Positions 31,091 through 56,138 of a stretch of DNA of 64,000 nt are shown here, piece by piece. The stretch is from the IMG/VR virus record IMGVR_UViG_3300020578_000008, positions 1 to 64,000 of that record; one strand, 5' to 3'. The DNA is from a virus. The position numbers and the translations under genes were made by a program. The notes beneath the pieces are model-generated. The model saw only the letters and a list, made by a program, of their open reading frames with translations. It made no database searches and was not told the origin of the DNA. How positions within the stretch are numbered: the stretch's first letter is position 1; each line of letters starts with the position of its first letter.

Positions 31091-31131
31091 GGCATAAGGG
31101 TCTTGACAGACCCCTTTTTTTATGCCATACT
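31091..31131 (+). promoter_or_regulatory. Combined terminator and promoter, -35 box in the hairpin loop
   Basis: AAGGGTC (31096-31102), loop TTGACA, GACCC (31109-31113), then a 7-base T run: a rho-independent terminator. The loop is itself a perfect -35 box; 17 bases later is CATACT (31126-31131) with the extended TGC. GGCATA and TATGCC flank the whole. So it ends the fibre transcript and starts the helicase cassette. Confidence 0.8.
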
Positions 31132-31156
31132 ATCTGTATTGACATTTCACCTCGTT

Positions 31157-32395
31157 ATGTTGCTTCGTCCTCACCAACAGAGTGGTTGTGCTGCTATGGA
31201 GCAGTATAACATCGGTCAACTGCTCATGCCTACGGGCGCTGGCAAGACCCCTACAATGATTCATGACTGTATTCGTGTGTTTGACACTGTAGACGCCGCT
31301 ACGGTCGTTGTGGTCGCTCCTAGGATCCTTCTGGCAGAGCAACTGTCTGCTGAGTTTCTTGAGCACATTACTAACGCTTCTGTACTTCATATTCATAGTG
31401 GTGAAACTCACCACTTCAAGACTACTAACCCCAATGTAATCAGTCAATGGGTGGAGAGTCATAAGTCCCACAACAAACTTATTTTCACAACCTATAACTC
31501 TCTTATTCGGGTTCAGCAGTCTGGCATTGATGTCCACACTGTCTATTGTGACGAGGCACATAATTCTATCAAGAAGAATTTCTTTCCTGCTATAGAATAT
31601 TTTTCTGGTGCTGCTGATCGTTGCTATTTCTTTACTGCCACTCCTAAGCATTCCAACACTATGTCTAAACCAGGCATGAATGATATTGATGTATACGGTA
31701 AGGTTATCTGTGATGTTCCTGCTACCGATATGGTCAAGCAAGGTTATATTCTTCCTCCTACCGTTGTTCCTTACGTTGTTGATTACGAACGTTTGAAAGG
31801 TGATCTTGCTGCTAGCAGCGATCATGTTACTCTCGTTAATATTATCGACGAACTGGATGAGGATGCTGCTTCTAAAATTCTGGTGGCAGTTCCTAGCAGC
31901 AAAGTGATGTGGAATCTGCTGTCTCAAACTACTATTCTCAATGACCTTGAAGATCGTGGTTATGATGTGCTTCATATCACTAGCAAGTATGGTGCTTGGG
32001 TTAACAAAACCAAAGTCAACCGTGAGGTATTCTTTGATACGTTCAATGCTTGGGGCAAAGATCCCAACCGTAAATTTGTAATTTTCCATTATAGCATTCT
32101 TGCTGAGGGTATCAACGTTCATGGTCTGACTCACACCATTCTGCTCCGTACTCTTGATGTCATCGAGATGGCACAGACTATCGGTAGGGTTATCCGTCTC
32201 AATAAAGACGATGCTGCTGACCTTTCTAGTGGTAGAATTGCTGTTGGTGACTATGCTATGTACCGTAAACCCACTGGTTTTGTGACTGTTCCTGTGTTCA
32301 AGAACTATGGTGATCGTACTATCAAACGTCTTCAGAACCTTGTCGATACTATTTTCGTTCAAGGCAAACCCGCTGTTTCTGTGGTCAACCGATGA
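31157..32395 (+). CDS. SF2 DNA helicase/ATPase (DEAH)
   Basis: 412 residues from the ATG at 31157; an earlier in-frame TTG lies within the -35 box and is unlikely. LRPHQ at the start is the Q-like region; Walker A PTGAGKT at 25-31, Walker B DEAH at 132-135, motif III TATP at about 160-163, and motif VI QTIGRVIR near 340-347. This is a restriction-type (ResIII/UvsW-like) superfamily II translocase using ATP. It is the first of three overlapping genes (helicase, HNH nuclease, adenine methyltransferase), with stop and next start sharing ATGA. Could be a recombination helicase, but the neighbours suggest a DNA-processing module. Confidence 0.85.
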   Translation: MLLRPHQQSGCAAMEQYNIGQLLMPTGAGKTPTMIHDCIRVFDTVDAATVVVVAPRILLAEQLSAEFLEHITNASVLHIHSGETHHFKTTNPNVISQWVESHKSHNKLIFTTYNSLIRVQQSGIDVHTVYCDEAHNSIKKNFFPAIEYFSGAADRCYFFTATPKHSNTMSKPGMNDIDVYGKVICDVPATDMVKQGYILPPTVVPYVVDYERLKGDLAASSDHVTLVNIIDELDEDAASKILVAVPSSKVMWNLLSQTTILNDLEDRGYDVLHITSKYGAWVNKTKVNREVFFDTFNAWGKDPNRKFVIFHYSILAEGINVHGLTHTILLRTLDVIEMAQTIGRVIRLNKDDAADLSSGRIAVGDYAMYRKPTGFVTVPVFKNYGDRTIKRLQNLVDTIFVQGKPAVSVVNR

Positions 32396-33390
32396 CTAAA
32401 CTTACTAAACTTACCCGTAAAATCGATTACAAAGACCAGTTGCTGACATACAAGCAACTGGAAGGTGTGGTTGCTCGTAAGCATATTCTTACTGGATCAG
32501 CTGCTGAGATTATCAACAATTCAAAAATCAACGATTTTGGATGGGAATCAGCAGCACTGGCATATTCTACCTTCACAACAGATGAGCGAGCAGATATTCG
32601 TAAATCTGGGCAGCAACTCGCTAAAGGTTACTACAATCCTACAACTGAGACAATTGATTCTCCTAATGTTCAACCTACGAATGATAGGGGTATTCTTGTA
32701 ACTCAAATGTATCTCAATCAGGATCGTTGCTGTGCTTACAGTGGTGATGGTCCTTACCATATTCTAGATTTTCAGGTAGAACATATTAATCCTAGTGGTG
32801 GCGACCACCCAGACAACATTGTACTTGTTCTCGCTAATGTAAATGAGAATAAAAAGCAATCTGTAGAGAGCTTCCTTGAACGTTGTGAACAGCGTTATAA
32901 CATGGGAGAACTTGAATATGCCAAATGGTATAAGGATATGAAAGATGCTGTCAAACGTGGGCAGAAAAAGAAATCTGAAATTCTCTCCATGAATGAGGAT
33001 GAGTTACGAACATACTGGTTGACACGTACAACACCAAAGTATGACAAATATGTGTGGCGTAATATTGGTATGTCATCTCTCAGTGAGTTTCGTATCCTGA
33101 AAAAAACAGGAGAGGAACGTAAAGGTGGTAGTCAAGGTAACTATGTGGACATTCTAAGCACTATTGCTGCTGAATATCTGTTTGGCGATCCTGATCTGGC
33201 ACGAGAAATTTATAAATCTGCTAGGTTATTTCGTAGTACTTATTTGAATGGAAAGATTCAAAACGATGTCTATGCTATTCTTACCACAGAAATCATAGAG
33301 TTGTCAAATCACATCTATCCAAGTTATAATAGAGACAAATTTATTGCTAACATCATCCGAAACAATTATACATGGCAACATCTAAACTGA
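32392..33390 (+). CDS. HNH endonuclease
   Basis: 332 residues. The HNH core is at about 110-157: DRCCAYSG, VEHINP (H131) and DNIVLVLANVNENK. HNH nucleases cut DNA with one metal ion in a beta-beta-alpha fold. The Cys pair is not the usual CxxC zinc knuckle. About 170 residues of unknown function follow, much longer than a homing endonuclease core. Overlaps the helicase by 4 bases and the methyltransferase by 19. Confidence 0.8.
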   Translation: MTKLTKLTRKIDYKDQLLTYKQLEGVVARKHILTGSAAEIINNSKINDFGWESAALAYSTFTTDERADIRKSGQQLAKGYYNPTTETIDSPNVQPTNDRGILVTQMYLNQDRCCAYSGDGPYHILDFQVEHINPSGGDHPDNIVLVLANVNENKKQSVESFLERCEQRYNMGELEYAKWYKDMKDAVKRGQKKKSEILSMNEDELRTYWLTRTTPKYDKYVWRNIGMSSLSEFRILKKTGEERKGGSQGNYVDILSTIAAEYLFGDPDLAREIYKSARLFRSTYLNGKIQNDVYAILTTEIIELSNHIYPSYNRDKFIANIIRNNYTWQHLN

Positions 33391-34211
33391 CTAACCATTC
33401 CCTGTATCGTTACGCTGGTGGTAAGAACAGGATGAAAAAAGATTTGATTCAGATTATCAAGGATGTAAATCCTGGTTTGACCAAGATTGTAGCGCCATTT
33501 ATGGGTGGAGGATCAACTGAGATTCTGATGGCAGCACAAGGTATCAAGGTGCAATCGTATGATATTTTTCGACCGCTAGCAGACTTCTGGGAGATCGTCA
33601 CGGCAGGTGGCGGCGGGCGAATCGCTGATGAAGTGACCAAGCATTACCCATTAATTGATAGCAATCACTATAAATCCTTCCTTCCGTTGTTGGATAGTGA
33701 GGATAAGTTCATCAGAGCGTGGGCATTTTACATTGCAATCAAGGGTTCGTACTCAGGTAAGATCGGATGTTCTACCGTTAAGTCTAGAGCAGAGTTCAGA
33801 CTTGTGGGAATTGATAAACTTAGGAATTTTTATAACCCGAACCTGTCGTTTGCCTACGGTAGTTGCTTCGACACGATTCCAAAGCACAAAAATGACTTCT
33901 TGTATCTGGATCCACCATATTACGAGACTGTTAGCCACTATTATGGTAAAGATGGTGCCCTTCACAAATCATTTGATCACGAAGCATTCTGTGATACTTT
34001 GAAGCAACACAAAGGTGGGTTCGTGATGTCTTATGACAACAGTGATGCTGTTCGTGAACTCTATCAAGGGTGGACAGAATTCAGGTATCTTACATTCCCT
34101 TATCAAATGTCGGGCACCAAACGTTACGATAAAACTGAATTGGTGATTGTCAAGCATCCAGAGCACTCTATACAAAAACCACAAACTGTGCTAGAATCTT
34201 TCATGGTATAA
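33372..34211 (+). CDS. dam: D12-class DNA adenine N6-methyltransferase
   Basis: 279 residues. AGGKNRM near the N-terminus, SAM-binding PFMGGGST at 42-49, and the catalytic DPPY at 180-183 (FLYLDPPYY) are all intact, in the order of Dam/D12 enzymes. It would transfer a methyl group from SAM to adenine N6 in DNA. Target site unknown. It starts inside the HNH gene, so the nuclease and methylase are probably made together. Confidence 0.88.
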   Translation: MATSKLTNHSLYRYAGGKNRMKKDLIQIIKDVNPGLTKIVAPFMGGGSTEILMAAQGIKVQSYDIFRPLADFWEIVTAGGGGRIADEVTKHYPLIDSNHYKSFLPLLDSEDKFIRAWAFYIAIKGSYSGKIGCSTVKSRAEFRLVGIDKLRNFYNPNLSFAYGSCFDTIPKHKNDFLYLDPPYYETVSHYYGKDGALHKSFDHEAFCDTLKQHKGGFVMSYDNSDAVRELYQGWTEFRYLTFPYQMSGTKRYDKTELVIVKHPEHSIQKPQTVLESFMV

Positions 34212-34212
34212 T
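34207..34212 (+). promoter_or_regulatory. Extended -10 promoter
   Basis: TGGTATAAT (extended -10) at the stop of the methyltransferase gene, 31 bases before the gene at 34244. No clear -35. Confidence 0.5.
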
Positions 34213-34243
34213 TCTCATATATAACGTGTAACGGAAAATAATT

Positions 34244-34504
34244 ATGCTTAATATTTACTACTATATTATCTTTACTATATTTGCTGTAATAGCATATATG
34301 ATGATTGTAGATGAAAATGTAGTTAGATATATTGAGATTATGTTTCAACTCTTCGTTATCAACTTGAAAAGATTATATTATATGGTTGTTTTTCATCCAG
34401 ATAATAAACTTACCACCTGGAGTATGAATTATAAATTCAATCGAATGACTCGTAAACTACAAAAAGAAATGGAACAAAATGACTCATCACGACCTATTGA
34501 TTGA
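34244..34504 (+). CDS. Small membrane protein, unknown
   Basis: 86 residues. A hydrophobic N-terminal helix (YYYIIFTIFAVIAYMMIV, residues about 5-22) and a second partly hydrophobic stretch (IMFQLFVINL) precede a basic tail (RMTRKLQKEMEQ). Probably membrane-anchored with a cytoplasmic tail. First of a chain of overlapping small genes. Confidence 0.7.
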   Translation: MLNIYYYIIFTIFAVIAYMMIVDENVVRYIEIMFQLFVINLKRLYYMVVFHPDNKLTTWSMNYKFNRMTRKLQKEMEQNDSSRPID

Positions 34505-34707
34505 TGATTAACATGACGCATTACGATAAATTAATTGACACGCTCATTATGCATCTCTATGATGCATGGGAGCACAAATATTGGGATGAGCAGCTAGCAA
34601 AAAGAAAAGCACATGAGATTCTAACAACTGTGGAAGCATTTCAACAAAACCGTGTCTTAACAACTACAGACACATCTGTATATGCACAATGGAGGGCAAG
34701 TGACTAA
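34501..34707 (+). CDS. Hypothetical protein
   Basis: 68 residues, helical, charged (LIMHLYDAWEHKYWDEQLA). ATGA overlap with the membrane protein upstream; a second ATG at 34513 is an alternative start. No recognised domain. Confidence 0.7.
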   Translation: MMINMTHYDKLIDTLIMHLYDAWEHKYWDEQLAKRKAHEILTTVEAFQQNRVLTTTDTSVYAQWRASD

Positions 34708-34918
34708 TTCTAAATTTCCATATGAAACGTTTCCATATCGTTTAGATATTAAAAAAGAAAATAGAGTTTGCTGGTTTATTCACGAAGAACATTTAAATAA
34801 ACTTATTGAACGAGAAAAATTAAATCCTAAAAATTATGAAGTATCCACGAATGGTGTGGCGTTGGTGGGCAAAGTCACTGGGTCAAAAAGCAAGCGACAA
34901 CGACAACGAAGCAGATAA
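34700..34918 (+). CDS. Hypothetical protein (GTG start)
   Basis: 72 residues from GTG at 34700, preceded by GGAGGG; the in-frame ATG at 34682 has no ribosome-binding site. The C-terminus is strongly basic (KSKRQRQRSR), but that part overlaps the next gene in another frame. Function unknown. Confidence 0.6.
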   Translation: MTNSKFPYETFPYRLDIKKENRVCWFIHEEHLNKLIEREKLNPKNYEVSTNGVALVGKVTGSKSKRQRQRSR

Positions 34919-35165
34919 GGTTGCTATCATTCGCACTCTTATGTTTGCTACATATCTTGTCACAAATGCTTTTATTATAGCAGGTGTGGTGAGACACTGG
35001 AATGACAATCAAATTAATGTTGAGGTAGAAGTCTATGAAAATTCAAACTATTCTGAAAAGTTACACTCAGAAAGACGGCACAACTTGGGAGTGGATGGAA
35101 ACACCAGAATTGAGGGCGTATATCGCTCAGGAGCAATCAAAAATCGCACTGGGGAATTTGAATGA
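34836..35165 (+). CDS. Small membrane protein, unknown
   Basis: Up to 109 residues. A membrane segment IIRTLMFATYLVTNAFIIAG at about residues 31-50 follows a basic Trp-rich N-terminus (RMVWRWWAKSLGQK); this type of sequence is familiar from cyanophage small membrane proteins. ATG at 34848 is an alternative start. The C-terminal 40 residues overlap another gene in a different frame and may be constrained by it. Confidence 0.65.
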   Translation: MKYPRMVWRWWAKSLGQKASDNDNEADKVAIIRTLMFATYLVTNAFIIAGVVRHWNDNQINVEVEVYENSNYSEKLHSERRHNLGVDGNTRIEGVYRSGAIKNRTGEFE

Positions 35166-35187
35166 GCGCCCAAAACGAGTATCCTAA
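35035..35187 (+). CDS. Small WEW-motif phage protein (paralog)
   Basis: 50 residues; TWEWMETPELRAYI is shared with the 46-residue protein at 161-301 (IWEWEETPELKAFI), which supports this frame. It overlaps the membrane-protein frame by 131 bases. Function unknown. Confidence 0.65.
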   Translation: MKIQTILKSYTQKDGTTWEWMETPELRAYIAQEQSKIALGNLNERPKRVS

Positions 35188-35210
35188 AATTATGGAATAG
35201 GAGAGAATAG

Positions 35211-35861
35211 TTGTATAAAGTATTTTATTCACCTATAAAACCACCAAATGCTGATGGACATGATATTTTATCCGAAAGAGATTTAGAACCATCTGAACAT
35301 CATCATTATCACAACTGTCCTGTTTGGAAACATAAACATAATAGAACGTTTGTGGCTGTATCACCAATAGATTTTGAAATAAAAATAAATGGTGAATATT
35401 TAGATTATGAGATGAATCCTCTTTATGGCAAAATGATTACGGATGCTGATGAATTAGATTCACAGCATCCTGTTTTACAATTATCATTTCCATTATATTA
35501 TTTTTGGACCGAAGAAAAAAATCTTTGGGTTGAAATGTTAGATCATCCAATGACTTCTTATAACAATAATATGATTGTTATTGGTGGATGGTGGAATCTT
35601 TTTAATCATCCGAGGTCAGTAAGCACAGCGGTCAAATATGTCAATAAAGATAATTCTATCATCATTAAAAAGGGAGATCCTTTATATAGAATCAGATTCT
35701 ATGGAGAAGATCTAAATTCAGGAGTGAAATTACTTCATTCTAAAGATGTCCCTAAACATATTATAGATCAACGTATCGTATCAAAACCATCAAATTCTAA
35801 TAGATCAACGTTACACAGACGGTTATTTTCCAAGCAATGTCCTTTTAAGAATTTTTTATGA
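35211..35861 (+). CDS. Hypothetical protein, possibly DUF6065-like (TTG start)
   Basis: 216 residues from a TTG preceded by GGAGAG. The middle and C-terminal parts (FPLYYFW, IGGWWNLFNHP, IKKGDPLYRIRFY) are reminiscent of DUF6065 proteins, which end in an IKRGDPLF.VRF-like block; tentative. Soluble, His-rich near residue 30 (EHHHYHNC). Coupled to the next gene by ATGA. Function unknown. Confidence 0.75.
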   Translation: MYKVFYSPIKPPNADGHDILSERDLEPSEHHHYHNCPVWKHKHNRTFVAVSPIDFEIKINGEYLDYEMNPLYGKMITDADELDSQHPVLQLSFPLYYFWTEEKNLWVEMLDHPMTSYNNNMIVIGGWWNLFNHPRSVSTAVKYVNKDNSIIIKKGDPLYRIRFYGEDLNSGVKLLHSKDVPKHIIDQRIVSKPSNSNRSTLHRRLFSKQCPFKNFL

Positions 35862-36211
35862 AAACTAAACTCAGCTGGTTTGAGTATTATATTGGTCATT
35901 GTTGGATGACTGGTTGGCAATCAATTCGTGGGTCGTTCCGTATCTGGGCAGACTTGATGACGGGAAACTATAAGGACTATGCCCTGATGTGGTATGATGA
36001 TCCTTATGAAGAATGTGTAGATTGGTTCTGGGGTTCTTTAGGTGATGATGATACCTTACCTAAAGAATTCCTTGAGCATTTACTGGAAATGTGTGATAGA
36101 ATAGATAAAGGTCAAGAAGAACTCATTCCTGCAGATGAAGATTTTTTTGATAGAATGAAAGACCTCCTAAAAGATGTAGAGCTAGAAAAATATGAAACTG
36201 ATACAATTTAA
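35858..36211 (+). CDS. Hypothetical protein
   Basis: 117 residues, Trp-rich N-terminal half (WFEYYIGHCWMTGWQ) and an acidic helical C-terminal half. No membrane span that is clearly hydrophobic enough. ATGA overlap upstream; 20-base overlap downstream. Confidence 0.75.
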   Translation: MKTKLSWFEYYIGHCWMTGWQSIRGSFRIWADLMTGNYKDYALMWYDDPYEECVDWFWGSLGDDDTLPKEFLEHLLEMCDRIDKGQEELIPADEDFFDRMKDLLKDVELEKYETDTI

Positions 36212-36476
36212 ACACTGGTATGATTATGGGCATGAATGGTGTGTCCAAATTTTCAATACATCTAAGCATTATCCAAAAAATTTAAAATTATTATCATTAC
36301 TACAGCTTTCTGTAGGATGGTGTGATTTTCCTTCTGGACCATATTTACAAATACATATGGGTCAGGGAAGATTGTTTGGTATGATATTTTTTGCCTATAA
36401 ATTTACATTTGATATTGACATCTTAGCACCAACATGGCATAGAAGCTATGACTCTTTCTTTGAGGATGAGAAATGA
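36192..36476 (+). CDS. Hypothetical protein
   Basis: 94 residues, aromatic- and His-rich, ending HRSYDSFFEDEK. No recognised motif. Starts inside the previous gene and overlaps the next by ATGA, so translationally coupled. Confidence 0.75.
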   Translation: MKLIQFKHWYDYGHEWCVQIFNTSKHYPKNLKLLSLLQLSVGWCDFPSGPYLQIHMGQGRLFGMIFFAYKFTFDIDILAPTWHRSYDSFFEDEK

Positions 36477-37377: not shown

Positions 37378-37402
37378 CTATCGATAAGCAATGCTTATGA
37401 AA

Positions 37403-37437
37403 CACCGCTTGACACCACCGTTGAGCGGTGCTATATT
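37403..37437 (+). promoter_or_regulatory. Sigma70-type promoter with -35 in a hairpin loop
   Basis: CACCGC (37403-37408) pairs with GCGGTG (37425-37430). The loop begins with TTGACA (37409-37414); 17 bases later is TATATT (37432-37437) with an extended TGC. Drives 37458 onward. Confidence 0.75.
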
Positions 37438-37457
37438 GTATTCAAATACATAAAACA

Positions 37458-44462: not shown

Positions 44463-44885
44463 ATGGCTAAAAGAGAAATTTCTGAAACAAGAAAAAAAAT
44501 TCGAGAAATATATGAACAAAATGAACTAGATGGTCTTGAAGCAAATAAAACTAGAGCAAGAGCTTTTAGTGTTGGTACGTGTGGTGGTGGATTAATTGAA
44601 GTTACTTTACGAGGAGATATTGGATTTTTATGGTATCAATTAGATGCCGTAGAAACTGTTGAGATTATACAACAGTTAGCTGCTGGTTGTGGTTTAGATA
44701 TAGCTTTGAGACCTAAAAATGATTTTGCTACTTGGAGATCTTGGGACGAAACATTACCAGGAGCTATTCATTGGGTTGGTGCAGCACCATGGCAAATGTC
44801 TGATGAGCAGAGAGAAGAAATAGCTGCTTTAAGAGCAAAAAATTTAAAATTGCTAAAACAACAAGAAGAACCAGCGGGCGAATAA
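44463..44885 (+). CDS. Hypothetical protein in fibre region
   Basis: 140 residues; charged N-terminal helix (RKKIREIYEQNELD), central CGGGLIEVTLRGDIGFLWY beta region, C-terminal acidic helix. Driven by a late-type box, so probably virion-associated or assembly; no recognised domain. Confidence 0.7.
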   Translation: MAKREISETRKKIREIYEQNELDGLEANKTRARAFSVGTCGGGLIEVTLRGDIGFLWYQLDAVETVEIIQQLAAGCGLDIALRPKNDFATWRSWDETLPGAIHWVGAAPWQMSDEQREEIAALRAKNLKLLKQQEEPAGE

Positions 44886-46930: not shown

Positions 46931-47140
46931 ATGTCACAAACGAGATCTCAACAAACAGATCTTACCGAAGAAGAATGGAAAGAATTAGTCGCCCTTAAAA
47001 ATCAAATAAATCAAAATCCAGCAGCAGTACATCCAGAAAAAATGGAGTTATTTACTGAATTGTTAGTTAGATCTTGGAATGCCAAATGTGATCCGCCTGA
47101 TACTTCTACATGGAGAACTGGTCATCCGCTGGATGAATGA
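46931..47140 (+). CDS. Small acidic helical protein
   Basis: 69 residues from ATG at 46931, preceded by GGAG. Helical (LTEEEWKELVALKNQIN), C-terminal part WRTGHPLDE. Unknown. Confidence 0.65.
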   Translation: MSQTRSQQTDLTEEEWKELVALKNQINQNPAAVHPEKMELFTELLVRSWNAKCDPPDTSTWRTGHPLDE

Positions 47141-47165
47141 AACAGTTTAACAACTGGCACACACT

Positions 47166-47196
47166 ACCGCCACATGGCGGTTTTTTAATCTATACT
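47166..47196 (+). terminator. Terminator overlapping a promoter
   Basis: ACCGCC / GGCGGT stem with ACAT loop and a T6 run (47181-47186) ends the upstream genes; TATACT at 47191-47196 follows at once and may start the next transcript (ATG at 47219). The hairpin loop lies close to the -35 position. Confidence 0.7.
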
Positions 47197-47676: not shown

Positions 47677-47872
47677 AGATTCTGTACGTCTAAATGTCCA
47701 TGAGATTGGTATTCTTCTCTCAGCACTACAACAAGTAGATCTGAGAGAGGAAGTTCAAATTGCCAGACAATATGGCAGTGTGGCAGCACTGTATAACAAA
47801 CTATACAGTGTTTGGGAACAGATGGACACTTCCCAAACTGTCCTACAGAACGACGTAGTGCCGTCCTTCTGA
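47669..47872 (+). CDS. Small helical protein
   Basis: 67 residues from ATG at 47669, beginning before the previous stop. Helical (EIGILLSALQQVDLREEVQI), acidic. Unknown. Confidence 0.65.
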   Translation: MTEDSVRLNVHEIGILLSALQQVDLREEVQIARQYGSVAALYNKLYSVWEQMDTSQTVLQNDVVPSF

Positions 47873-47905
47873 CCCTATAATATCAAAGTATTCAACAGAA
47901 CTCCA

Positions 47906-49696: not shown

Positions 49697-49869
49697 TGTT
49701 AAACGATAAATTTGATAATATGAATAATTTTGTCCTTGATCAAGTTGATAATCTCATGGATTGCTATGATAATCCTGTAGTCCGTGAGCGTATCCTACGT
49801 GAGGCGGAAGATCAATTGTTTGAGGACAGTTTTGAAACTGTCCCCTGGGACCTCCTAGAGGACTTCTAA
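49693..49869 (+). CDS. Small acidic protein
   Basis: 58 residues, acidic, ending VPWDLLEDF. ATGA overlap upstream. Its 3' end contains a strong inverted repeat, GGACAGT/ACTGTCC (49824-49843), which may also act in the RNA. Confidence 0.65.
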   Translation: MMLNDKFDNMNNFVLDQVDNLMDCYDNPVVRERILREAEDQLFEDSFETVPWDLLEDF

Positions 49870-49874
49870 ACCTC

Positions 49875-49880
49875 TATACT
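49875..49880 (+). promoter_or_regulatory. Possible -10 box
   Basis: TATACT followed by AACTACATACCAAACAACC, like the boxes and purine-poor leaders of the 54.7-56.8 kb array. 25 bases before the gene at 49906; no -35 box. Confidence 0.4.
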
Positions 49881-49905: not shown

Positions 49906-50259
49906 ATGACTGCTACCTTCGCCCAGTTTCAAGCAGAACAAGACGCTCGTAACACCATCCATCTCAACATCGTCAAGTACGGTATGATGTTGTGTGATGC
50001 TCTCCAACAGACTGCTCCCGATGGTTATTTCTTCGCCCTTGAGTCTTCTGGTCGTAAGTATCATAAAGTCTTCATGTATATCGATGGTCGTCGTGACAGC
50101 ATCCATGCTTTCATTGACAAGAAGACTGGTGATGTGTTCAAACCTGCTAGCATCAAAGCTCCTGCTAAGCATGTTCGTTTCAATGTGCTCTCTATTCCTT
50201 CCCGTGAAGAGATGTTCCGTCGTGCTAACTGGGCGGGTGGTTATCTTTACCTTCGCTGA
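49906..50259 (+). CDS. Conserved phage protein, unknown
   Basis: 117 residues; helical N-terminus, then YFFALESSGRKYHKVFMYID and GDVFKPASIKAPAKHVRFNV, mixed beta. GC-richer than neighbours and with a leader lacking a Shine-Dalgarno site. No recognised domain. Confidence 0.75.
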   Translation: MTATFAQFQAEQDARNTIHLNIVKYGMMLCDALQQTAPDGYFFALESSGRKYHKVFMYIDGRRDSIHAFIDKKTGDVFKPASIKAPAKHVRFNVLSIPSREEMFRRANWAGGYLYLR

Positions 50260-50274: not shown

Positions 50275-50298
50275 CTTACTAAACACACAAGGAGAATC

Positions 50299-50538: not shown

Positions 50539-50792
50539 CTAAACTCTCTAACCTCACAGTGTCTCATATTCAGACACTCATGGAATCATTTCCACAACTC
50601 CAACCAGGAACACATACACTCCGTGTATTCCCACATACTCAAATTTCAGAAGCAGAATTAGCACTGTTCTGGAAATATCATGGTAACTTCCCACAAGAAT
50701 TTACACAAGCAATTATTAATATCTTACCTAATAATGCTGAATTTATTTCCTATGATCATCTCCTGAATAATGTTACTGTTATTCAAAAATGA
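50535..50792 (+). CDS. Hypothetical protein
   Basis: 85 residues; helical, with LTVSHIQTLMESFPQLQPG near the start and FWKYHGNFP in the middle. ATGA overlaps at both ends. Confidence 0.7.
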   Translation: MTKLSNLTVSHIQTLMESFPQLQPGTHTLRVFPHTQISEAELALFWKYHGNFPQEFTQAIINILPNNAEFISYDHLLNNVTVIQK

Positions 50793-50986
50793 TACCAGCA
50801 GCTCTTACTATTCTTCAACTCTGCTTCAATCAATATTATATCTGTGAATCACCAGATCCTCCTCCAATTGCATACTATCAAGAAGGCTATGCCTGTTATA
50901 TCAATGGCACCTTTCATCAATCCTGTCCTAAACCAGATTACTTGACAAAACCTACCACAAAATCCTATAATAGGAACAACTACTAA
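50789..50986 (+). CDS. Hypothetical Cys-rich secreted-like protein
   Basis: 65 residues; hydrophobic start (IPAALTILQLCF) then Cys, Pro and Tyr-rich sequence (CESPDPPPIAYY). The start could be a weak signal sequence, but the evidence is thin. Confidence 0.6.
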   Translation: MIPAALTILQLCFNQYYICESPDPPPIAYYQEGYACYINGTFHQSCPKPDYLTKPTTKSYNRNNY

Positions 50987-51216
50987 TGTACACCATGACC
51001 GAAGAGCAATCAGTATCAAAACAAGTGGATCATATCCTAGAAACTTATTTTGAACAGTTCTCTCATCTCGTATCTAAAAATCGTAATGATGATGCTATTG
51101 CTATCGGTGATGAGGTACGTGAGTGGATGCGTAGTATTGAAACAGAAACTATTCTATACTTTAATATTAAAGAACTACGCCAACAATATAGACAATTAAA
51201 AAAAGAAAATGGCTGA
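50986..51216 (+). CDS. Hypothetical helical protein
   Basis: 76 residues, start overlapping the upstream stop (TAATG); a second ATG nine bases on is possible. Helical, Glu/Gln-rich, ending RQQYRQLKKENG. Overlaps the next oxygenase by 8 bases. Confidence 0.65.
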   Translation: MYTMTEEQSVSKQVDHILETYFEQFSHLVSKNRNDDAIAIGDEVREWMRSIETETILYFNIKELRQQYRQLKKENG

Positions 51217-51829
51217 TCCAGCAGCATTATACAATACTAAATTACCAAAAGATATTACTGACCTTATCTCTATTCATTGTCAGTCATATCATAATCAATT
51301 AGAAGCATCAACAATTAAATCTAGTGGTGTAGTACATTCAAAAAGAGATTCTCTTAATGCTTGGATTCCAGATGAAGATTGGATAGCAGGTTTTCTTTGG
51401 TATTATATCCAAAAAGCAAATTTTGCTAATTGGAGATTTGATATTACATCTATTGATAATTCCTCCTTACAATATACAGTCTATAATCCTGGTCAATTCT
51501 ATCATTGGCATACTGATTCAGGATTACGTCGATTGTATCAATCAGAAAGATATCCTACTTCTCAATCAGTTAATCTAAAAGATTACGTTATGCCATTAGC
51601 AGAATATACTCGTAAATTATCTTTCTCTCTTCAACTATCAGACTCAGATGAATATACAGGAGGACAATTACAACTCATTGCTAATGATGATCTAAACCTT
51701 AATATAGCACCAGTAGAAAGAGGTACATTAATTATCTTTGATTCTCATCTACGTCATCGTGTTACTAAAGTTAAATCAGGTCAACGTAAATCTTTAGTCG
51801 GTTGGGTAGTAGGTCCAAGATGGAAATAG
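51209..51829 (+). CDS. 2OG-Fe(II) oxygenase, prolyl-hydroxylase-like
   Basis: 206 residues. YHWHTD (H101, D103), RKLSFSLQLSD, YTGGQLQL, HLRHRVT (H183) and RKSLVGW form a complete PiuC/P4H-like core, close to the protein at 44932. Its stop codon abuts the DnaA-box-like repeats. Substrate unknown. Confidence 0.85.
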   Translation: MADPAALYNTKLPKDITDLISIHCQSYHNQLEASTIKSSGVVHSKRDSLNAWIPDEDWIAGFLWYYIQKANFANWRFDITSIDNSSLQYTVYNPGQFYHWHTDSGLRRLYQSERYPTSQSVNLKDYVMPLAEYTRKLSFSLQLSDSDEYTGGQLQLIANDDLNLNIAPVERGTLIIFDSHLRHRVTKVKSGQRKSLVGWVVGPRWK

Positions 51830-51865
51830 TTTTCCACAATTTCCACAGTTTCCGCAATTTCCACA
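51830..51865 (+). repeat. Four tandem DnaA-box-like 9-mers
   Basis: Consecutive TTTTCCACA, ATTTCCACA, GTTTCCGCA, ATTTCCACA without gaps. TTTTCCACA is the box reported for cyanobacterial DnaA. The block begins immediately after the oxygenase stop codon and is followed by an AT-rich tract. Confidence 0.7.
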
Positions 51866-52022
51866 GGTATTTAAAAATATATTAAAAAATATAGGTAGTG
51901 TGATCTATTGTATGGTAGAGTATCTAAATGGGCGGAGGTCTTGTTGTCTTAGCGCCCAACCCATCGAAAGTCAAGGAAGTATATGACAGTCCTCAAAGTG
52001 GCACAGAGACCCTCCGAGACCC
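51866..52022 (+). other. AT-rich tract and noncoding region (origin-like)
   Basis: 51868-51893 is nearly pure A/T (TATTTAAAAATATATTAAAA and on), next to the DnaA-box-like repeats, as in a DNA unwinding element. Further on is GGGCG...CGCCC (51930-51957), resembling a degenerate copy of the hairpin before 53056, and an AAGTGGCACA block at 51997. No ORF supported here. Confidence 0.45.
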
Positions 52023-52051
52023 TTGACAGACGCCTCTAAATGTCCTATACT
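52023..52051 (+). promoter_or_regulatory. Strong sigma70-type promoter
   Basis: TTGACA (52023-52028), 17 bases, TATACT (52046-52051). It would produce a leader of about 160 bases before the gene at 52215. Confidence 0.75.
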
Positions 52052-52155
52052 GTATTTGTGATTGGTCATCACGAAATTAAATGGAAGCGAGATTGAGGGA
52101 TTTCGAGGTTTTCCAAAATCTTCGAAATCTCAAAAATCTCAAAATCTCAAAAACT

Positions 52156-52185
52156 TAAAAAACTTACTTTTTTAGTTTTTTAAGA
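52156..52185 (+). other. AT-rich inverted repeat in long leader
   Basis: The leader 52060-52214 has repeated ATCTCAAAA units and the inverted repeat CTTAAAAAACT / AGTTTTTTAAG around TACTTTTTT. It may fold in the mRNA; no known riboswitch recognised. Confidence 0.45.
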
Positions 52186-52214
52186 TTTTCAAAAAACTCA
52201 ATTTTTAAATTTTA

Positions 52215-52487
52215 ATGATTTTACTGAATTCAATGATTACTAAAGAAGATCAAGGAGTAGTATATCAAGGATTTAATAGTACTGCTATTAAATCAGTTGG
52301 TATTATTGAGAATACTTGTACTGTAGTATTTAATTCTAGTGATAAAGAATATAATTACACAGTAATTGATAATAATTTTGAAGAAAACCTTCAAAATACT
52401 ATCAAAAATGGTGAAAGTGTTGGTAAATTTATCACTTCAGCAATCAAAAGTGAAAATATCCAACAAATAAATACGATTGTACAGTAA
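52215..52487 (+). CDS. KTSC-domain protein
   Basis: 90 residues. FNSTAIKSVGI, TVVFNSSDKEYNYTVID, and NGESVGKFI match the KTSC fold (S.I..V.Y, L.V.F..G..Y.Y..V, S.G..). KTSC domains occur with lysyl-tRNA synthetase and other RNA-related proteins, and alone; function here unknown. A second ATG at 52233 is possible. Transcribed from the strong promoter at 52023 with a long AT-rich leader. Confidence 0.7.
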   Translation: MILLNSMITKEDQGVVYQGFNSTAIKSVGIIENTCTVVFNSSDKEYNYTVIDNNFEENLQNTIKNGESVGKFITSAIKSENIQQINTIVQ

Positions 52488-52519
52488 TTCTTAACAATTA
52501 TCACTGTTTTATTCAAACA

Positions 52520-52684
52520 ATGACAAAAAACAACCGAAAGTATACCGAATCCTTCAAAGAAGTGAGCTTTGAAGATGAATATGAAGATTATGGTTATGAA
52601 GTTCAGAATGCCAAACGTTACTCAAGTCGAAGTAAACGTCAAGCAAAATTCAAAGACCACGATGATACATACGTAGACTATTGA
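52520..52684 (+). CDS. Small charged protein
   Basis: 54 residues, first half acidic (FEDEYEDYGYEV), second half basic (RYSSRSKRQAKFK). No recognised domain. Followed by a strong terminator, so it closes the 52.0-52.7 kb unit. Confidence 0.7.
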   Translation: MTKNNRKYTESFKEVSFEDEYEDYGYEVQNAKRYSSRSKRQAKFKDHDDTYVDY

Positions 52685-52696
52685 ATGTAAACTTTA

Positions 52697-52722
52697 CCAC
52701 CCATCTTCGGATGGGTTTTTTC
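52697..52722 (+). terminator. Rho-independent terminator with TTCG tetraloop
   Basis: CCCATC / GATGGG stem with a TTCG loop and a run of six T. Confidence 0.9.
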
Positions 52723-52781
52723 ATAGCATCAAATATCCCCTCGGTGGTATCACCCTAGGACAGTTTAAGAAGTGGCACAGA

Positions 52782-52814
52782 AGACCTCCCAGGGGTGTCT
52801 GGTGGTGATATATT
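52782..52814 (+). promoter_or_regulatory. Hairpin-associated promoter
   Basis: AGACC / GGTGTCT hairpin (imperfect) over the -35 position, then TATATT (52809-52814) with extended TGA, preceded by an AAGTGGCACA block. 24 bases before the TTG start at 52839. Confidence 0.5.
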
Positions 52815-52838
52815 ACATGAGTCGTCAGGAATTGACCT

Positions 52839-53015
52839 TTGAAAGACATTCGAATTCAAGTTGAAACTTTCGACGGTTGTATCACTATTTGGTACGAACG
52901 TTCTAAGTTAAAGAATGCCTGTGATGTTATCTCCAAACGTGTATACAATCAGCTGTGTGGTTTGAATATTAAAGAGATCGACGTGAGCGTTATCGGTGAT
53001 CCTGTGACAGTCTGA
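52839..53015 (+). CDS. Small hypothetical protein (TTG start)
   Basis: 58 residues. The only possible upstream start is TTG at 52839, because an in-frame stop precedes it; AGGA is upstream. DIRIQVETFDGCITIWYE then a helix; ends VSVIGDPVTV. Unknown. Confidence 0.6.
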   Translation: MKDIRIQVETFDGCITIWYERSKLKNACDVISKRVYNQLCGLNIKEIDVSVIGDPVTV

Positions 53016-53027
53016 CAAGTGTCCACA

Positions 53028-53061
53028 GGGCATTGACTTCGCCCCCAACCCATGCCATACT
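53028..53061 (+). promoter_or_regulatory. Promoter with -35 in a hairpin loop
   Basis: GGGC (53028-53031) / GCCC (53041-53044) enclose TTGACT (53033-53038); 17 bases later is CATACT (53056-53061) with extended TGC. Drives 53088. Confidence 0.7.
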
Positions 53062-53087
53062 ATGTACATCACTGAGGGATTCACCCC

Positions 53088-53414
53088 ATGAGAAAGATCG
53101 AACGTCTGATGAACGCTGCCATCACCGAGCAACGTGACTGGAAACTTGATAACACTGAAGTTGTCACTATTGATGGTGTCAGTTCTGTATTTCTTCACGG
53201 CAATTGTATTGCTGAGGTTGGTGATACTTTTGTCCGACTGTTTGATGGTGGTTGGCAATCCAATACCACCAAATCTCGTCTCAATGCTATCCTTCGGGAG
53301 CATGGTCGTGATGGTGAGTGTGTGTTTCAAAAGCAGTGGCATTGGTTCATTAATCTGAACACTGACCGAGGTATTGAAACTGTGCCTTTCCGTTCTTCTA
53401 TGAAACTTGCTTGA
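53088..53414 (+). CDS. Conserved phage protein, unknown
   Basis: 108 residues; RKIERLMNAAI, then TEVVTIDGVSSVFLHGNCIA and FINLNTDRG. This MRKIE...LHGN.IA pattern is familiar from small cyanophage proteins. Mixed alpha/beta, soluble. Confidence 0.78.
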   Translation: MRKIERLMNAAITEQRDWKLDNTEVVTIDGVSSVFLHGNCIAEVGDTFVRLFDGGWQSNTTKSRLNAILREHGRDGECVFQKQWHWFINLNTDRGIETVPFRSSMKLA

Positions 53415-53529
53415 GTATGTCACATTACTCAACTCCTTACATTCCCAGTTTTATTGAATATTCAAATTTTACAAAAATATGGATTTTTTGGATTTTCAAA
53501 ATTTTAAAAACTATTAAATCTCAATAATT

Positions 53530-53646
53530 ATGACTTTTACTGATTATCTAATTGAAGAGATTAACGATGAAGAATTCTATGAAGATATAGAATTCGATGA
53601 TAGTAGTGCTAACTACTATGATATAGATTATACTACTCAAGAGTAG
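53530..53646 (+). CDS. Small acidic protein
   Basis: 38 residues, almost entirely Asp, Glu and Tyr after FTDYLIEE. An AT-rich leader (53440-53529) similar to the one before 52215 precedes it. The acidic, host-mimic-like composition is a guess only. Unknown. Confidence 0.5.
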   Translation: MTFTDYLIEEINDEEFYEDIEFDDSSANYYDIDYTTQE

Positions 53647-53684
53647 TATATACAAACCCCACTGTTCTTTTGCTTTCTTTTACT

Positions 53685-53861
53685 ATGTCTACTTCACTGA
53701 TGATTAAACTGCTGGATCGTACCGCTAATGGTAACGAACTGTTGAAAGTTCTTGATAGTTTTGTCGAGCAAGATCCTGTCGATCAGCATATGGAACTGAT
53801 GACTGAAATGTATGACAAAATGAAGTCTAATCAGCCTACACTAGAAACCATCGATTTCTGA
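53685..53861 (+). CDS. Small helical protein
   Basis: 58 residues from ATG at 53685; helical (LMIKLLDRTANGNELLKVLD), acidic. Function unknown. Confidence 0.65.
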   Translation: MSTSLMIKLLDRTANGNELLKVLDSFVEQDPVDQHMELMTEMYDKMKSNQPTLETIDF

Positions 53862-53875
53862 TATTAATGTGCCAG

Positions 53876-53926
53876 ATCAACAAGTGTCCACTGATTCCCC
53901 CATTGGTCACTTGTTGATGCCATACT
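53876..53926 (+). promoter_or_regulatory. Promoter with an 11-bp hairpin
   Basis: ATCAACAAGTG (53876-53886) pairs with CACTTGTTGAT (53908-53918); CATACT (53921-53926) with TGC follows, putting the -35 position in the loop, where the sequence is CCCCAT, not a -35 consensus. 22 bases before 53948. Confidence 0.55.
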
Positions 53927-53947
53927 ACATCTGTTCCAAACGAAATC

Positions 53948-54073
53948 ATGCCTGACTTCTACACATTCACTGGTGACGGTATTACCATTCTTGGTTTGGT
54001 TGGTATTATCTCAACTGGTATCATTGTTGCCACAGCGTTCACTCGTTATTTCAATTCACCCCTGAGAAAGTGA
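53948..54073 (+). CDS. Small membrane protein
   Basis: 41 residues; one hydrophobic helix (ILGLVGIISTGIIVATAF) then a basic tail. Likely single-pass membrane peptide. TGATG overlap with the next gene. Confidence 0.6.
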   Translation: MPDFYTFTGDGITILGLVGIISTGIIVATAFTRYFNSPLRK

Positions 54074-54249
54074 TGACGTACAACGAACTCCTGCAACAGT
54101 TGCAACAACTCAACGAAGATCAACTCAATTCTGATGTTGCCGTCTACGATGAAGGCACCGATGAGTATTATCAACTCAAAGTTGAGTTAGTGTTTGCAAC
54201 TGATGAATGTCAGGTGCTTGATGTAGACCACCCTATCATTCGTTTCTGA
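54073..54249 (+). CDS. Small acidic protein
   Basis: 58 residues; TYNELLQQLQQLNEDQLNSD then beta. TGATG overlaps at both ends, so it is part of a coupled run 53948-54449. Confidence 0.65.
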   Translation: MTYNELLQQLQQLNEDQLNSDVAVYDEGTDEYYQLKVELVFATDECQVLDVDHPIIRF

Positions 54250-54449
54250 TGCAATTCCAAGTTACTTCCATTGAGTATGATTTCACTGGATCTGAGGATG
54301 AGATTACAGATGCTGAGATGAATGACATCATCGACGATACAGTAGGACACATCTGGGAGGCAGATGATGAAGATGATCTCATTGAAGAGATCACTTCGTG
54401 GACAGGTTGGTGCATCAAATCCATTGATTATCGTCACATTCTGAACTGA
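54249..54449 (+). CDS. Small acidic protein
   Basis: 66 residues, strongly acidic (GSEDEITDAEMNDIIDD) then WTGWCIKSIDY. TGATG overlap upstream. Unknown. Confidence 0.65.
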   Translation: MQFQVTSIEYDFTGSEDEITDAEMNDIIDDTVGHIWEADDEDDLIEEITSWTGWCIKSIDYRHILN

Positions 54450-54453
54450 AACC

Positions 54454-54702
54454 ATGACCAACAACGCTTACACTTGGACTGACAACTTCTCCGAACTTTG
54501 TGAGAAGTATGCTGAACATGTGATGGACAGCATGGACATGAAGACGATGGAACAATTCGTCTTCGATACACTTTACGAGTGCTATTCTGCCTATGATGAA
54601 GAACAGTTGATCAATGAGATTCGTGAGTTGTATGGTGACGAAGTGCTGGAAGATTTTGGCATTGAACTTAAAGAAGGTCCAGATGATGTGACAGTTGACT
54701 AA
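54454..54702 (+). CDS. Hypothetical acidic helical protein
   Basis: 82 residues; helical, Glu/Asp-rich (FSELCEKYAEHVMDSM, MKTMEQFVFDTLYECY). No recognised domain. Ends just before the hairpin promoter at 54711. Confidence 0.7.
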   Translation: MTNNAYTWTDNFSELCEKYAEHVMDSMDMKTMEQFVFDTLYECYSAYDEEQLINEIRELYGDEVLEDFGIELKEGPDDVTVD

Positions 54703-54710
54703 GTGGTACA

Positions 54711-54746
54711 CAGGGGGTTGAAATGCCCCCTGATCGATGCCATACT
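54711..54746 (+). promoter_or_regulatory. Promoter with -35 in hairpin loop
   Basis: CAGGGGG (54711-54717) / CCCCCTG (54726-54732) with TTGAAA as the loop start, 17 bases, then CATACT (54741-54746) with extended TGC. Preceded by AAGTGGTACA. Drives 54770. Confidence 0.75.
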
Positions 54747-54769
54747 AACCACATCAACCACAAACACAG

Positions 54770-54943
54770 ATGTACTACAACCGCTACGACATGCTGACCG
54801 CCTTTACCACTGACGAGATGGCAGTGCTCTATGATCTGGTCTGCTCCCATCAGGGCTGCCAGATCCTCCCCGACTGGATGGATCAAAAGGTCTTCGACAG
54901 TGTACAGGAAAAAGTCAGCGACGCCTACCATGAGACCACATGA
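54770..54943 (+). CDS. Small acidic protein (GC-rich array 1)
   Basis: 57 residues; YYNRYDMLTAFTTDEMAVLY, Cys pair, helical end. GC-rich codons unlike the genes before 54.7 kb. The leader is ACATCAACCACAAACACAG, without a Shine-Dalgarno site. Overlaps the next gene by 4 bases. Confidence 0.65.
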   Translation: MYYNRYDMLTAFTTDEMAVLYDLVCSHQGCQILPDWMDQKVFDSVQEKVSDAYHETT

Positions 54944-55050
54944 ATCACTACCTTGCCGCCGCTCTCCTGATGATCGTCGCCATCGGTTTCCCCATGATGT
55001 GTGCCGCCTTGGGCATGAAGGTCAACACCCGCAACGGATGGTGGGACTGA
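54940..55050 (+). CDS. Small membrane peptide
   Basis: 36 residues; hydrophobic helix (LAAALLMIVAIGFPMMCAAL), then RNGWWD. ATGA overlap with the previous gene. Confidence 0.5.
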   Translation: MNHYLAAALLMIVAIGFPMMCAALGMKVNTRNGWWD

Positions 55051-55071
55051 CCACCTGACTAAGTGGCACAA

Positions 55072-55106
55072 GGGGTCACAGTGACCCCATCCTGACCCTG
55101 TAGACT
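55072..55106 (+). promoter_or_regulatory. Hairpin-associated -10 box
   Basis: GGGGTCA / TGACCCC (7 bp, loop CAG 55079-55081), with the -35 position at the loop, then TAGACT (55101-55106). AAGTGGCACA precedes it. No -35 consensus, so the promoter is weak or needs an activator. Confidence 0.45.
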
Positions 55107-55112
55107 GACAGC

Positions 55113-55301
55113 ATGAACAACCTTAACCCCTCACTGATGGAACGCCGCTTCACCGTCTACGTTCCGTCTGACCCCTGGGAATCCATCGACTGCCAGACCT
55201 GGGCAGAGGCGCAGCGCCTGCTCGCCATCAAAGCAGACGAGTTCGTCTACGCTGAGATTCGGAAGGATGGGGTGATCCTTGACGATCTCCAGATCCTGTG
55301 A
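55113..55301 (+). CDS. Small hypothetical protein (GC-rich array)
   Basis: 62 residues; RRFTVYVPSDPWESIDCQTW, then a helix. GC-rich. TAGACT box upstream. Unknown. Confidence 0.65.
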   Translation: MNNLNPSLMERRFTVYVPSDPWESIDCQTWAEAQRLLAIKADEFVYAEIRKDGVILDDLQIL

Positions 55302-55349
55302 CAGTAGAGGCACTGTCCACCAACTACCCCAAACCCCATCAGGGGCTGC

Positions 55350-55355
55350 CATACT
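55350..55355 (+). promoter_or_regulatory. -10 box with shared leader
   Basis: CATACT with extended TGC, preceded by CCCCATCAGGGG, and followed by CATCAACCAAACGAACC before the ATG at 55384. No -35 consensus. Confidence 0.45.
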
Positions 55356-55383
55356 AAGAGCATCAACCAAACGAACCAAACCT

Positions 55384-55581
55384 ATGTGGGATGAGATCCA
55401 AGACATGCCTGGCGAGATCTACGACGTGAACCCCTACGTCGCTCAGATCCTCTCCCAAGGCAAAGAGCCCAGCAAGGCACCCGCCCCCACGGCGACCTAC
55501 CCTCGGGAAATCCACGGTCGAGTCTACCAGACCGAGGCAGAATACCGTGAGGACCTCCATGACTTTCTGAACGGTATGTGA
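55384..55581 (+). CDS. Small hypothetical protein (GC-rich array)
   Basis: 65 residues from ATG at 55384, the first after the leader. Pro-rich middle (EPSKAPAPTATYPREIHG), acidic helix at the end. Unknown. Confidence 0.65.
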   Translation: MWDEIQDMPGEIYDVNPYVAQILSQGKEPSKAPAPTATYPREIHGRVYQTEAEYREDLHDFLNGM

Positions 55582-55629
55582 CAGTGTAGGGGGTGTCCAC
55601 AGATGCCCCCAAACCCCACCAGGGGCTGC

Positions 55630-55635
55630 CATACT
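55630..55635 (+). promoter_or_regulatory. -10 box with shared leader
   Basis: CATACT with TGC; the 28 bases before it nearly repeat those at 55322-55349 (CCCCAAACCCCACCAGGGG). A GGGGG/CCCCC stem lies upstream. Leader CATCAACCAAACCAAACC before 55660. Confidence 0.45.
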
Positions 55636-55659
55636 ATCAGCATCAACCAAACCAAACCA

Positions 55660-55833
55660 ATGAAGATCGAAGTTCGTTACCAGACCCCCTACAGCAGCCA
55701 GGAGTGGCGGTCACAGTGGTTCCCCACGCTGGCAGAGGCTGAGCGGATGGTGGACTTCTACCGCTCCTGTGGATCACCCGCCCATGTGGCACCTAGCAGT
55801 CTGGCACAGTTCGAGCACCTCGGGCGCTCCTGA
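55660..55833 (+). CDS. Small hypothetical protein (GC-rich array)
   Basis: 57 residues; KIEVRYQTPYSSQEWRSQWF, then a helix. Start chosen at the ATG that ends the shared leader. Unknown. Confidence 0.62.
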   Translation: MKIEVRYQTPYSSQEWRSQWFPTLAEAERMVDFYRSCGSPAHVAPSSLAQFEHLGRS

Positions 55834-55838
55834 CCCTG

Positions 55839-55844
55839 TAGACT
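55839..55844 (+). promoter_or_regulatory. -10 box with shared leader
   Basis: TAGACT after CCTGACCCTG, then AACCACATCAACCAAACGAC and the ATG at 55872. The same CCTGACCCTG-TAGACT occurs before 55113 and 56579. Confidence 0.4.
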
Positions 55845-55871
55845 AACCACATCAACCAAACGACTCAAACC

Positions 55872-56093
55872 ATGACGACCTACAACGGATGGGCAAACTG
55901 GGAGACCTGGAACGTCGCCCTGTGGATTCAGAACGATGAGCGGACCTACAACCTCGCTCAAAAGTTCACCCGCTACAACGCTCTCATTCCCCACCTTGAG
56001 ATGCTGTGGGGGCAGATGACCCCAGACGGTGCCCGTTGGATGGACGCTAAGATCGACACCGACGAACTGGACGAGATGCTGGACGATTTCTGA
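55872..56093 (+). CDS. GW.N.ETWNVALW phage protein
   Basis: 73 residues; YNGWANWETWNVALWIQNDE near the start is a block shared by many phage proteins of unknown function (probably DUF7249). Acidic C-terminus (TDELDEMLDDF). GC-rich array, shared leader upstream. Confidence 0.75.
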   Translation: MTTYNGWANWETWNVALWIQNDERTYNLAQKFTRYNALIPHLEMLWGQMTPDGARWMDAKIDTDELDEMLDDF

Positions 56094-56103
56094 ACTGTCC
56101 ACA

Positions 56104-56138
56104 GGGGGGCGCCTTCCCCCCTCCCCCGCCTCTATACT
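56104..56138 (+). promoter_or_regulatory. Hairpin-associated promoter
   Basis: GGGGGG / CCCCCC with loop CGCCTT (56110-56115) at the -35 position, then TATACT (56133-56138) and the leader AAACACATCAACCAAACGA before 56166. Confidence 0.5.

Follow-up and report, generated by a model that had tools for sequence, protein, structure and literature searches.

A 24-bp dyad, a short hairpin and a sigma-70-type -10 box form probable gene-joint cassettes in a T4-like cyanophage

We report that a 64,000-base stretch of viral DNA (the window; bases 1-64000 of the 156,598-base IMG/VR record IMGVR_UViG_3300020578_000008), which comes from a T4-like cyanophage with S-PM2 among its distant relatives, carries a family of promoters in which a 24-bp imperfect dyad, a hairpin and a -10 box follow one another within about 75 bp, and that these units are likely to be compact gene-joint cassettes in a hypervariable region of small genes. 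Specifically, at the level of the DNA we find the dyad itself, its fixed spacing to the -10 box, an enrichment of hairpins in between, a design where the -35 hexamer lies in the hairpin loop, runs of T after stems, and a cassette that relatives carry before different genes. Between 47 and 57 kb the window is a succession of very small genes, and those that can be named belong to the cyanophage families Kyano_Gp96, DUF7326, DUF7249 and DUF7717, the function of which is not known; a search of the window with Rfam returned tRNAs only. The phage's own genome was analysed in stretches, and the sample of relatives comprised 80 related cyanophage loci.

The dyad has the consensus TGTGMCASTT-N4-AASTGKCACA and ends 28-30 nt before the -10 box. 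Its core, GGACAGT-N6-ACTGTCC, occurs nine times in the window where 1.6 occurrences are expected (none of 100 shuffles equalled this), and relatives show it more clearly before the same gene, at a constant distance from the -10 box. Among the 80 loci, -10 boxes at 28-30 nt past the dyad were found for 17 + 113 + 52 = 182 of 655 sites, compared with 2 + 0 + 5 = 7 of 161 sites in the shuffled control, and 100 of the 195 exact dyads in IMG/VR viral contigs have a -10 box at 29-30 nt; the dyad sequence logo was built on 100 promoters having both dyad and -10 box. Using a looser score, dyads with a -10 box at 28-31 nt number 13 in the own genome, 13 in S-PM2, 5 in Syn9, 7 in S-CRM01 and 18 in P-SSM2, with none in T4 and 0-1 in reversed controls; those of Syn9 include dyads at 44774, 47204 and 49078. 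The dyad recurs in all ten T4-like Synechococcus and Prochlorococcus phages tested, with matches within 3 mismatches also in S-RSM4, S-SM2, P-SSM4, P-TIM40 and P-HM2 (Syn9 has 4 sites, P-TIM40 has 6, clustered at 50-55 kb, and S-SM2 only one, with 3 mismatches); at the same stringency there are none in T4, RB49, phi1, KVP40, Ma-LMM01 or P-SSP7. The -35 is poor in most dyad promoters, a match of at least 4/6 being present in 26 of 80 (10% by chance). A first-pass annotation of this DNA had noted that AAGTGGCACA-like sequence often precedes its hairpins, and correctly so: this is the right half of the dyad, which had itself gone unrecognised and is the more important signal.

The stretch between dyad and -10 box is enriched in hairpins. 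When 80 non-redundant promoters were selected on the dyad only, the minimum free energy (MFE) of the spacer was -10 or lower in 20%, compared with 1.9% of shuffles, and stems of 6 or more were present in 16% (2% in shuffles). For the spacers of the own genome, tested in correct register against mononucleotide shuffles, 6 of 17 have an MFE of -10 or lower (0.75 expected), 9 of 17 reach an MFE of -8 (2.1 expected), and the summed MFE lies about 7 standard deviations under the shuffles. The spacer hairpin is a real, yet optional, part of these promoters. At 9 of 13 operators (that is, dyads) in the window the upstream stop codon sits at or inside the dyad, which places the hairpin directly past the end of translation. 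Moreover, in S-CRM01 three dyad promoters have a hairpin followed by T5-T6 and no -35, and at 31091, 47138 and 132096 of the present record a sigma-70 -10 box (at 31091 also a -35) is combined with a hairpin and a T-run. Taken from their form and position, the hairpins most likely end the upstream transcript.

The promoters in the window are given below; "additional" marks hairpin promoters not in the first-pass annotation, and ORF stands for open reading frame.

31098..31131, plus strand: putative fused terminator-promoter, GGGTC-TTGACA-GACCC, T7, ATGC and -10 CATACT (31126-31131); the -35 TTGACA (31103-31108) is the loop, and a weak operator (31073-31096) precedes
37403..37437, plus strand: hairpin CACCGC..GCGGTG whose loop holds TTGACA, -10 TATATT (37432-37437), no operator
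47138..47196, plus strand: operator 47138-47161, hairpin ACCGCC-ACAT-GGCGGT with T6, -10 TATACT (47191-47196); additional
47822..47881, plus strand: operator 47822-47845, -10 TATAAT (47876); upstream ORF crosses the spacer
49822..49880, plus strand: operator with perfect core GGACAGTTTTGAAACTGTCC, -10 TATACT (49875); the DUF7717 gene 49906-50259 follows, and the upstream ORF crosses the spacer
51982..52051, plus strand: operator 51982-52005, -35 TTGACA, -10 TATACT (52046), no hairpin; operator to -10 is 40 nt rather than 28-30, about one helical turn more
52756..52814, plus strand: operator 52756-52779, -10 TATATT (52809); hairpin at 52782 not better than shuffles
53003..53061, plus strand: operator 53003-53026, weak 4-bp stem around the -35 TTGACT (53033-53038), -10 CATACT (53056), before the Kyano_Gp96 gene 53088-53414
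53868..53926, plus strand: operator 53868-53891, -10 CATACT (53921), no -35; an 11-bp stem, ATCAACAAGTG (53876) / CACTTGTTGAT, has the operator's right half as one of its arms
54687..54746, plus strand: operator 54687-54710, hairpin CAGGGGG-TTGAAATG-CCCCCTG with TTGAAA in the loop, -10 CATACT (54741)
55047..55106, plus strand: operator 55047-55070, hairpin GGGGTCACAGTGACCCC (55072-55088), -10 TAGACT (55101), no -35
55297..55355, plus strand: operator 55297-55320, hairpin CCCC-ATCA-GGGG adjoining the -10 CATACT (55350); additional
55577..55635, plus strand: operator 55577-55600, spacer hairpin, -10 CATACT (55630); additional
55785..55844, plus strand: operator 55785-55808, -10 TAGACT (55839); upstream ORF crosses the spacer, no significant hairpin
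56079..56138, plus strand: operator 56079-56102, hairpin GGGGGG-CGCCTT-CCCCCC, -10 TATACT (56133), no -35
56295..56353, plus strand: operator 56295-56318, -10 TAGACT (56348); upstream ORF crosses the spacer, no hairpin

The first-pass annotation had described eight stem-loops placing their loop on or next to the -35 (31091, 37403, 52782, 53028, 53876, 54711, 55072 and 56104). All eight sites are present in the sequence, and the four good -35 hexamers claimed for them are there with a 17-nt spacer: TTGACA-17-CATACT at 31091, TTGACA-17-TATATT at 37403, TTGACT-17-CATACT at 53028 and TTGAAA-17-CATACT at 54711. Sigma-70 -35/-10 pairs at 16-18 nt are found at 31091, 37403, 52046, 53028 and 54711, and most of the other dyad promoters are without a good -35. 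The 42 bases before each -10 box were folded and compared with 200 dinucleotide-type shuffles, giving P 0.015 at 31091, P <0.005 at 37403, P 0.005 at 53876 and P 0.01 at 54711, with a marginal value at 55072 (P 0.14) and no support at 52782 (P 0.59) and 53028 (P 0.55; a 4-bp stem only). In this test 56104 was two bases off register; the spacer test against mononucleotide shuffles, which has the correct register, gave P 0.003 for 56104 and P 0.007 for 55072. About six of the eight stem-loops are accordingly real (31091, 37403, 53876, 54711, 55072 and 56104), and those at 52782 and 53028 are no better than chance.

The geometry had been described as constant, and is less so than claimed: the distance from loop centre to the following -10 box ranges from about 13 to 24 nt, and at 55350 and 55630, which have the same -10 context and lay outside the original set, the hairpin adjoins the -10. 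This bears on the suggestion that the hairpins are DNA cruciforms sensing supercoiling, or a structure read by RNA polymerase. Stem sequences do vary while the position is roughly kept, which speaks for it, but the loop centres are spread over about 10 nt, the short stems with loops of 4-6 nt and T-runs have the classic form of terminators, and three of the four promoters with an upstream ORF running through the spacer lack a significant hairpin. The dyad gives the same answer. Its positions 8 and 17 avoid complementarity (GG 57, CC 28, GC 12, CG 2; chi-square 50) and positions 5 and 20 show almost no coupling; a self-pairing structure would show the opposite of the 8/17 pattern, and the dyad is therefore not kept as a cruciform. 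With positions 8/17 anti-complementary, an RNA stem or cruciform formed by the dyad was rejected, and for the hairpins a cruciform or polymerase-read structure is highly improbable. A pseudo-dyad of two unlike halves, bound by a protein, would be consistent with the pattern.

The -35-in-loop design was defined as a class of promoters having a -35 of at least 5/6, a -10 box at 16-18 nt and a strong stem whose loop contains the -35, and the expected number was obtained by shuffling the flanks with the hexamers kept. The class is far above expectation, with 3 of 35 promoters in the own genome (0.30 expected) and 15 of 110 in the 80 cyanophage loci (0.65 expected); P-SSM2 has 4 of 61 (0.48) and S-PM2 2 of 34 (0.23), and the same scan gave 0 in T4, Syn9 and S-CRM01. 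A separate sample of viral contigs, picked only by TTGAC + GCCATACTA, contained 11 of 61 (0.75 expected), a frequent form being AGCACCC-TTGACA-GGGTGCT-TTTTTT-ATGC-CATACT. A T-rich tail follows 11 of the 24 stems that carry the -35 in the loop, T-runs are present at S-PM2 124331 and at P-SSM2 66963 and 68556, and the loop falls on the -35 because the 3' arm of the stem and the T-run fit within the 17-nt spacer. Outside the window, at genome base 126239 (L008, about 2239), TTGACA lies in the stem, and not the loop, of TGTCAAG-CCCC-CTTGACA.

The first-pass annotation knew of no such family in cyanophages, which needs qualification: T4-like phages are known to carry "promoter early stem loop" cassettes (PeSLs), a subject taken up in one cyanophage paper. 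Work by Arbiol et al. in 2010 and Comeau et al. in 2014 is said to have defined a PeSL as a strong sigma-70 early promoter plus a stem-loop terminator between small genes of the hypervariable region. Gene modules are reportedly swapped at the PeSLs of T4-like phages, among which RB49 is said to have them. The cyanophage joints resemble PeSLs in pairing a strong sigma-70-like promoter with a stem-loop in an intergenic joint. They differ from them in that the hairpins lie 11-30 nt before the -10 box with a loop that can be the -35, a layout unlike the tandem one of RB49, and in that RB49, phi1, T4 and KVP40 are without the dyad. The same test found T-tailed hairpins at 8 of 65 RB49 promoters; they precede the -35, at a distance of 40-70 nt from the -10 that follows, and none falls at -30..-11 from the -10.

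The RB49 result also bears on whether ordinary sigma-70 early promoters simply stand beside ordinary terminators, dense small genes bringing the two together with no functional fusion. Gene density is high, hairpins are missing from most dyad promoters and the terminators and promoters of RB49 are merely adjacent, all of which suit such packing. Against it, -35-in-loop stems outnumber those of flank shuffles 10- to 20-fold, with the 17-nt spacing and T-runs kept, and the empty -30..-11 bins of RB49 indicate that packing by itself does not force this geometry. We regard packing as an unlikely explanation. Judged from its layout, the cyanophage form is a fused PeSL variant with an extra operator, and not a plain PeSL. 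The passages on PeSLs of T4-like phages in Puxty et al. 2015 judge them sparse in S-PM2 (PMC4503421); the criterion applied there probably missed fused forms in that phage.

The cassettes also appear before different genes. The promoter and hairpin at 37403 (37380-37444) recur with 89% identity in two relatives (L131/L552), where they precede a DUF7717 gene and the gene that is next in the window comes after it. Conversely, another relative (L130) has a DUF7717 gene whose protein is 99% identical over 114 residues to that of the window but whose promoter is quite unlike it, TTGACA being enclosed there by AGAGGC..GCCTCT-T6 as its loop. The 37403 arrangement is the single clear example of a moved module, and the placement would match the gene-module role reported for PeSLs in T4-like phages.

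The first-pass annotation had offered three mechanisms: overlapping terminator and promoter, factor site, and supercoil-sensed cruciform. The first is the best supported, by the T-runs after stems, the position just past the upstream stop and the fact that relatives have it too. There is also support for a factor site, with the difference that the site is the upstream dyad and not the hairpin. The joint would begin with the 24-bp imperfect dyad, usually overlapping the upstream stop codon. Next would come a hairpin, short, rich in GC and often trailed by a T-run, that ends the upstream transcript, and a host sigma-70 -10 box, sometimes with a -35, would follow at 28-30 nt past the dyad. One sub-type would have the -35 TTGACA itself as the loop of the terminator, terminator and promoter using the same bases. 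The dyad near -52 would bind a dimeric factor, encoded by the phage or carried in, that activates promoters mostly devoid of a good -35, and the joint would insulate genes and serve as a gene-swapping point.

Several observations weigh against this explanation. About 80% of dyad promoters lack a strong hairpin, and the hairpins at 54711, 55072, 56104 and 53876 have no T-run and may be weak terminators or no terminators. The coding-spacer promoter at 47822 has a modest hairpin (P 0.03), Syn9, S-CRM01 and S-RSM4 do not have -35-in-loop promoters above chance, and PHROG_385, the sole regulator-like shared family examined, was not found in the covered part of this genome, which is incomplete. PHROG_385, shared by seven T4-like cyanophages but missing from T4, is an unconvincing candidate for the dyad binder: it has no recognisable DNA-binding domain, its S-RSM4 member has no Pfam hit, and its sequence is not convincing as that of a DNA-binding protein.

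The location of the dyad, centred near -52 beside promoters mostly lacking a good -35, suggests an activator site. It could instead be a repressor operator that closes the promoters later. The fixed spacing suits either sign of control, and the promoters at 31091 and 52046, having a consensus -35, would need no activator; the dyad, at about -64 to -41, is however upstream of the -35, which is less usual for repressors, and the poor -35 of most dyad promoters points to a need for activation, so that repression appears rather unlikely. The dyad might also be the site of a host transcription factor borrowed by the phage, as early promoters must act before phage proteins exist. Exact dyads do occur in a few cyanobacterial genomes, and one metagenome-assembled genome (MAG) has 9 sites within 3 mismatches compared with 2 for the reversed sequence. 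Against this, 101 Cyanobiaceae genomes (about 215 Mb) hold only 11 sites with at most 2 mismatches, in 7 genomes, a density hundreds of times below that in the phages. The dyad was thus rejected as a host regulon, being scarce in Cyanobiaceae and having few matches in 257 Gb of genomes; a host regulon at comparable density is unlikely, and a host factor having very few targets of its own is given a low probability. A phage-encoded or virion-borne activator remains the reading that we prefer.

Other occurrences of the dyad were also seen. A Pyrinomonadaceae MAG (SSF56) has the exact 24-bp dyad on six contigs (L330, L337, L341, L347, L359, L362) without the phage spacing to a -10; perhaps an unrelated regulator has a similar site there. 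In viral contig 3300008113_001711 and a relative the dyad stands in tandem units of about 58 bp (L443 1-420, L400 89-420, L405 779-1900), most of them followed by TTGACA and a T-rich stretch, and in L405 a gene resembling an XRE/HigA-type antitoxin adjoins one array. In P-SSM2 the dyads at 55757 and 58535 have -10-like boxes 29-31 nt off on both sides and are possibly shared by divergent promoters. A DnaA-box reading of TGTCCACA in the promoters was rejected, as the GGCACA variants do not fit, and is retained for 51831-51866 only. A cluster of TTTCCACA-type boxes resembling the cyanobacterial DnaA box lies there, and past it come an AT-rich stretch, a non-coding block conserved in L144, L132, L163 and L200 (about 51925-52022; identity 75-83%) and a dyad promoter. 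The elements are arranged in this order in S-PM2 as well (19232-19420), and the 51831-51866 region is a possible replication origin.

Among known systems, T4 middle promoters have a MotA box near -30 and a sigma-70 -10 with no -35. Dyad promoters are like them in having a -10 box and a factor site that replaces a good -35, and unlike them in that the dyad is 24 bp long, lies near -52 and ends 28-30 nt before the -10, so that the MotA layout does not apply. Doron et al. in 2016 reportedly described a novel early-gene regulatory element in Syn9 and P-TIM40, conserved in T4-like cyanophages; that work is not known to link it to fused terminators. Our literature search, in which that work was not included, found no description of the dyad sequence. 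The dyad may be the same element, as it occurs in both phages used there, and the operator may already be in the literature. According to PMC5780444, motA/asiA and T4 middle promoters are missing from T4-like cyanophages. NtcA-dependent promoters, with GTA-N8-TAC before the -10, have been reported in cyanophages (PMC3037559) and likewise have a palindromic activator site at a fixed distance from the -10; the dyad differs in having no GTA-N8-TAC core and in lying further upstream.

Whether these promoters make up a class of their own, with a phage-specific dyad at about -52, a phage or virion-borne activator replacing the -35 (and MotA) and a terminator in the same bases, is a tentative and rather doubtful proposal. 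If true, the -35 of one promoter would be the terminator loop of another gene, and occupancy of either could disturb the other. A terminator fused in this way, with a -35 for its loop, would be economical in design and carry two functions on the same bases, and the dyad opens the question of what replaces MotA in cyanophages. It also provides a simple sequence rule for finding such promoters in thousands of metagenomic phage contigs. Finally, the early-infection genes of T4-like cyanophages are mostly small and of functions not known, and the joints suggest how they may be expressed and swapped separately. For viruses that infect cyanobacteria of the sea and of fresh water, the compact joint is probably a means of insulating small takeover genes and exchanging them in cassette form.

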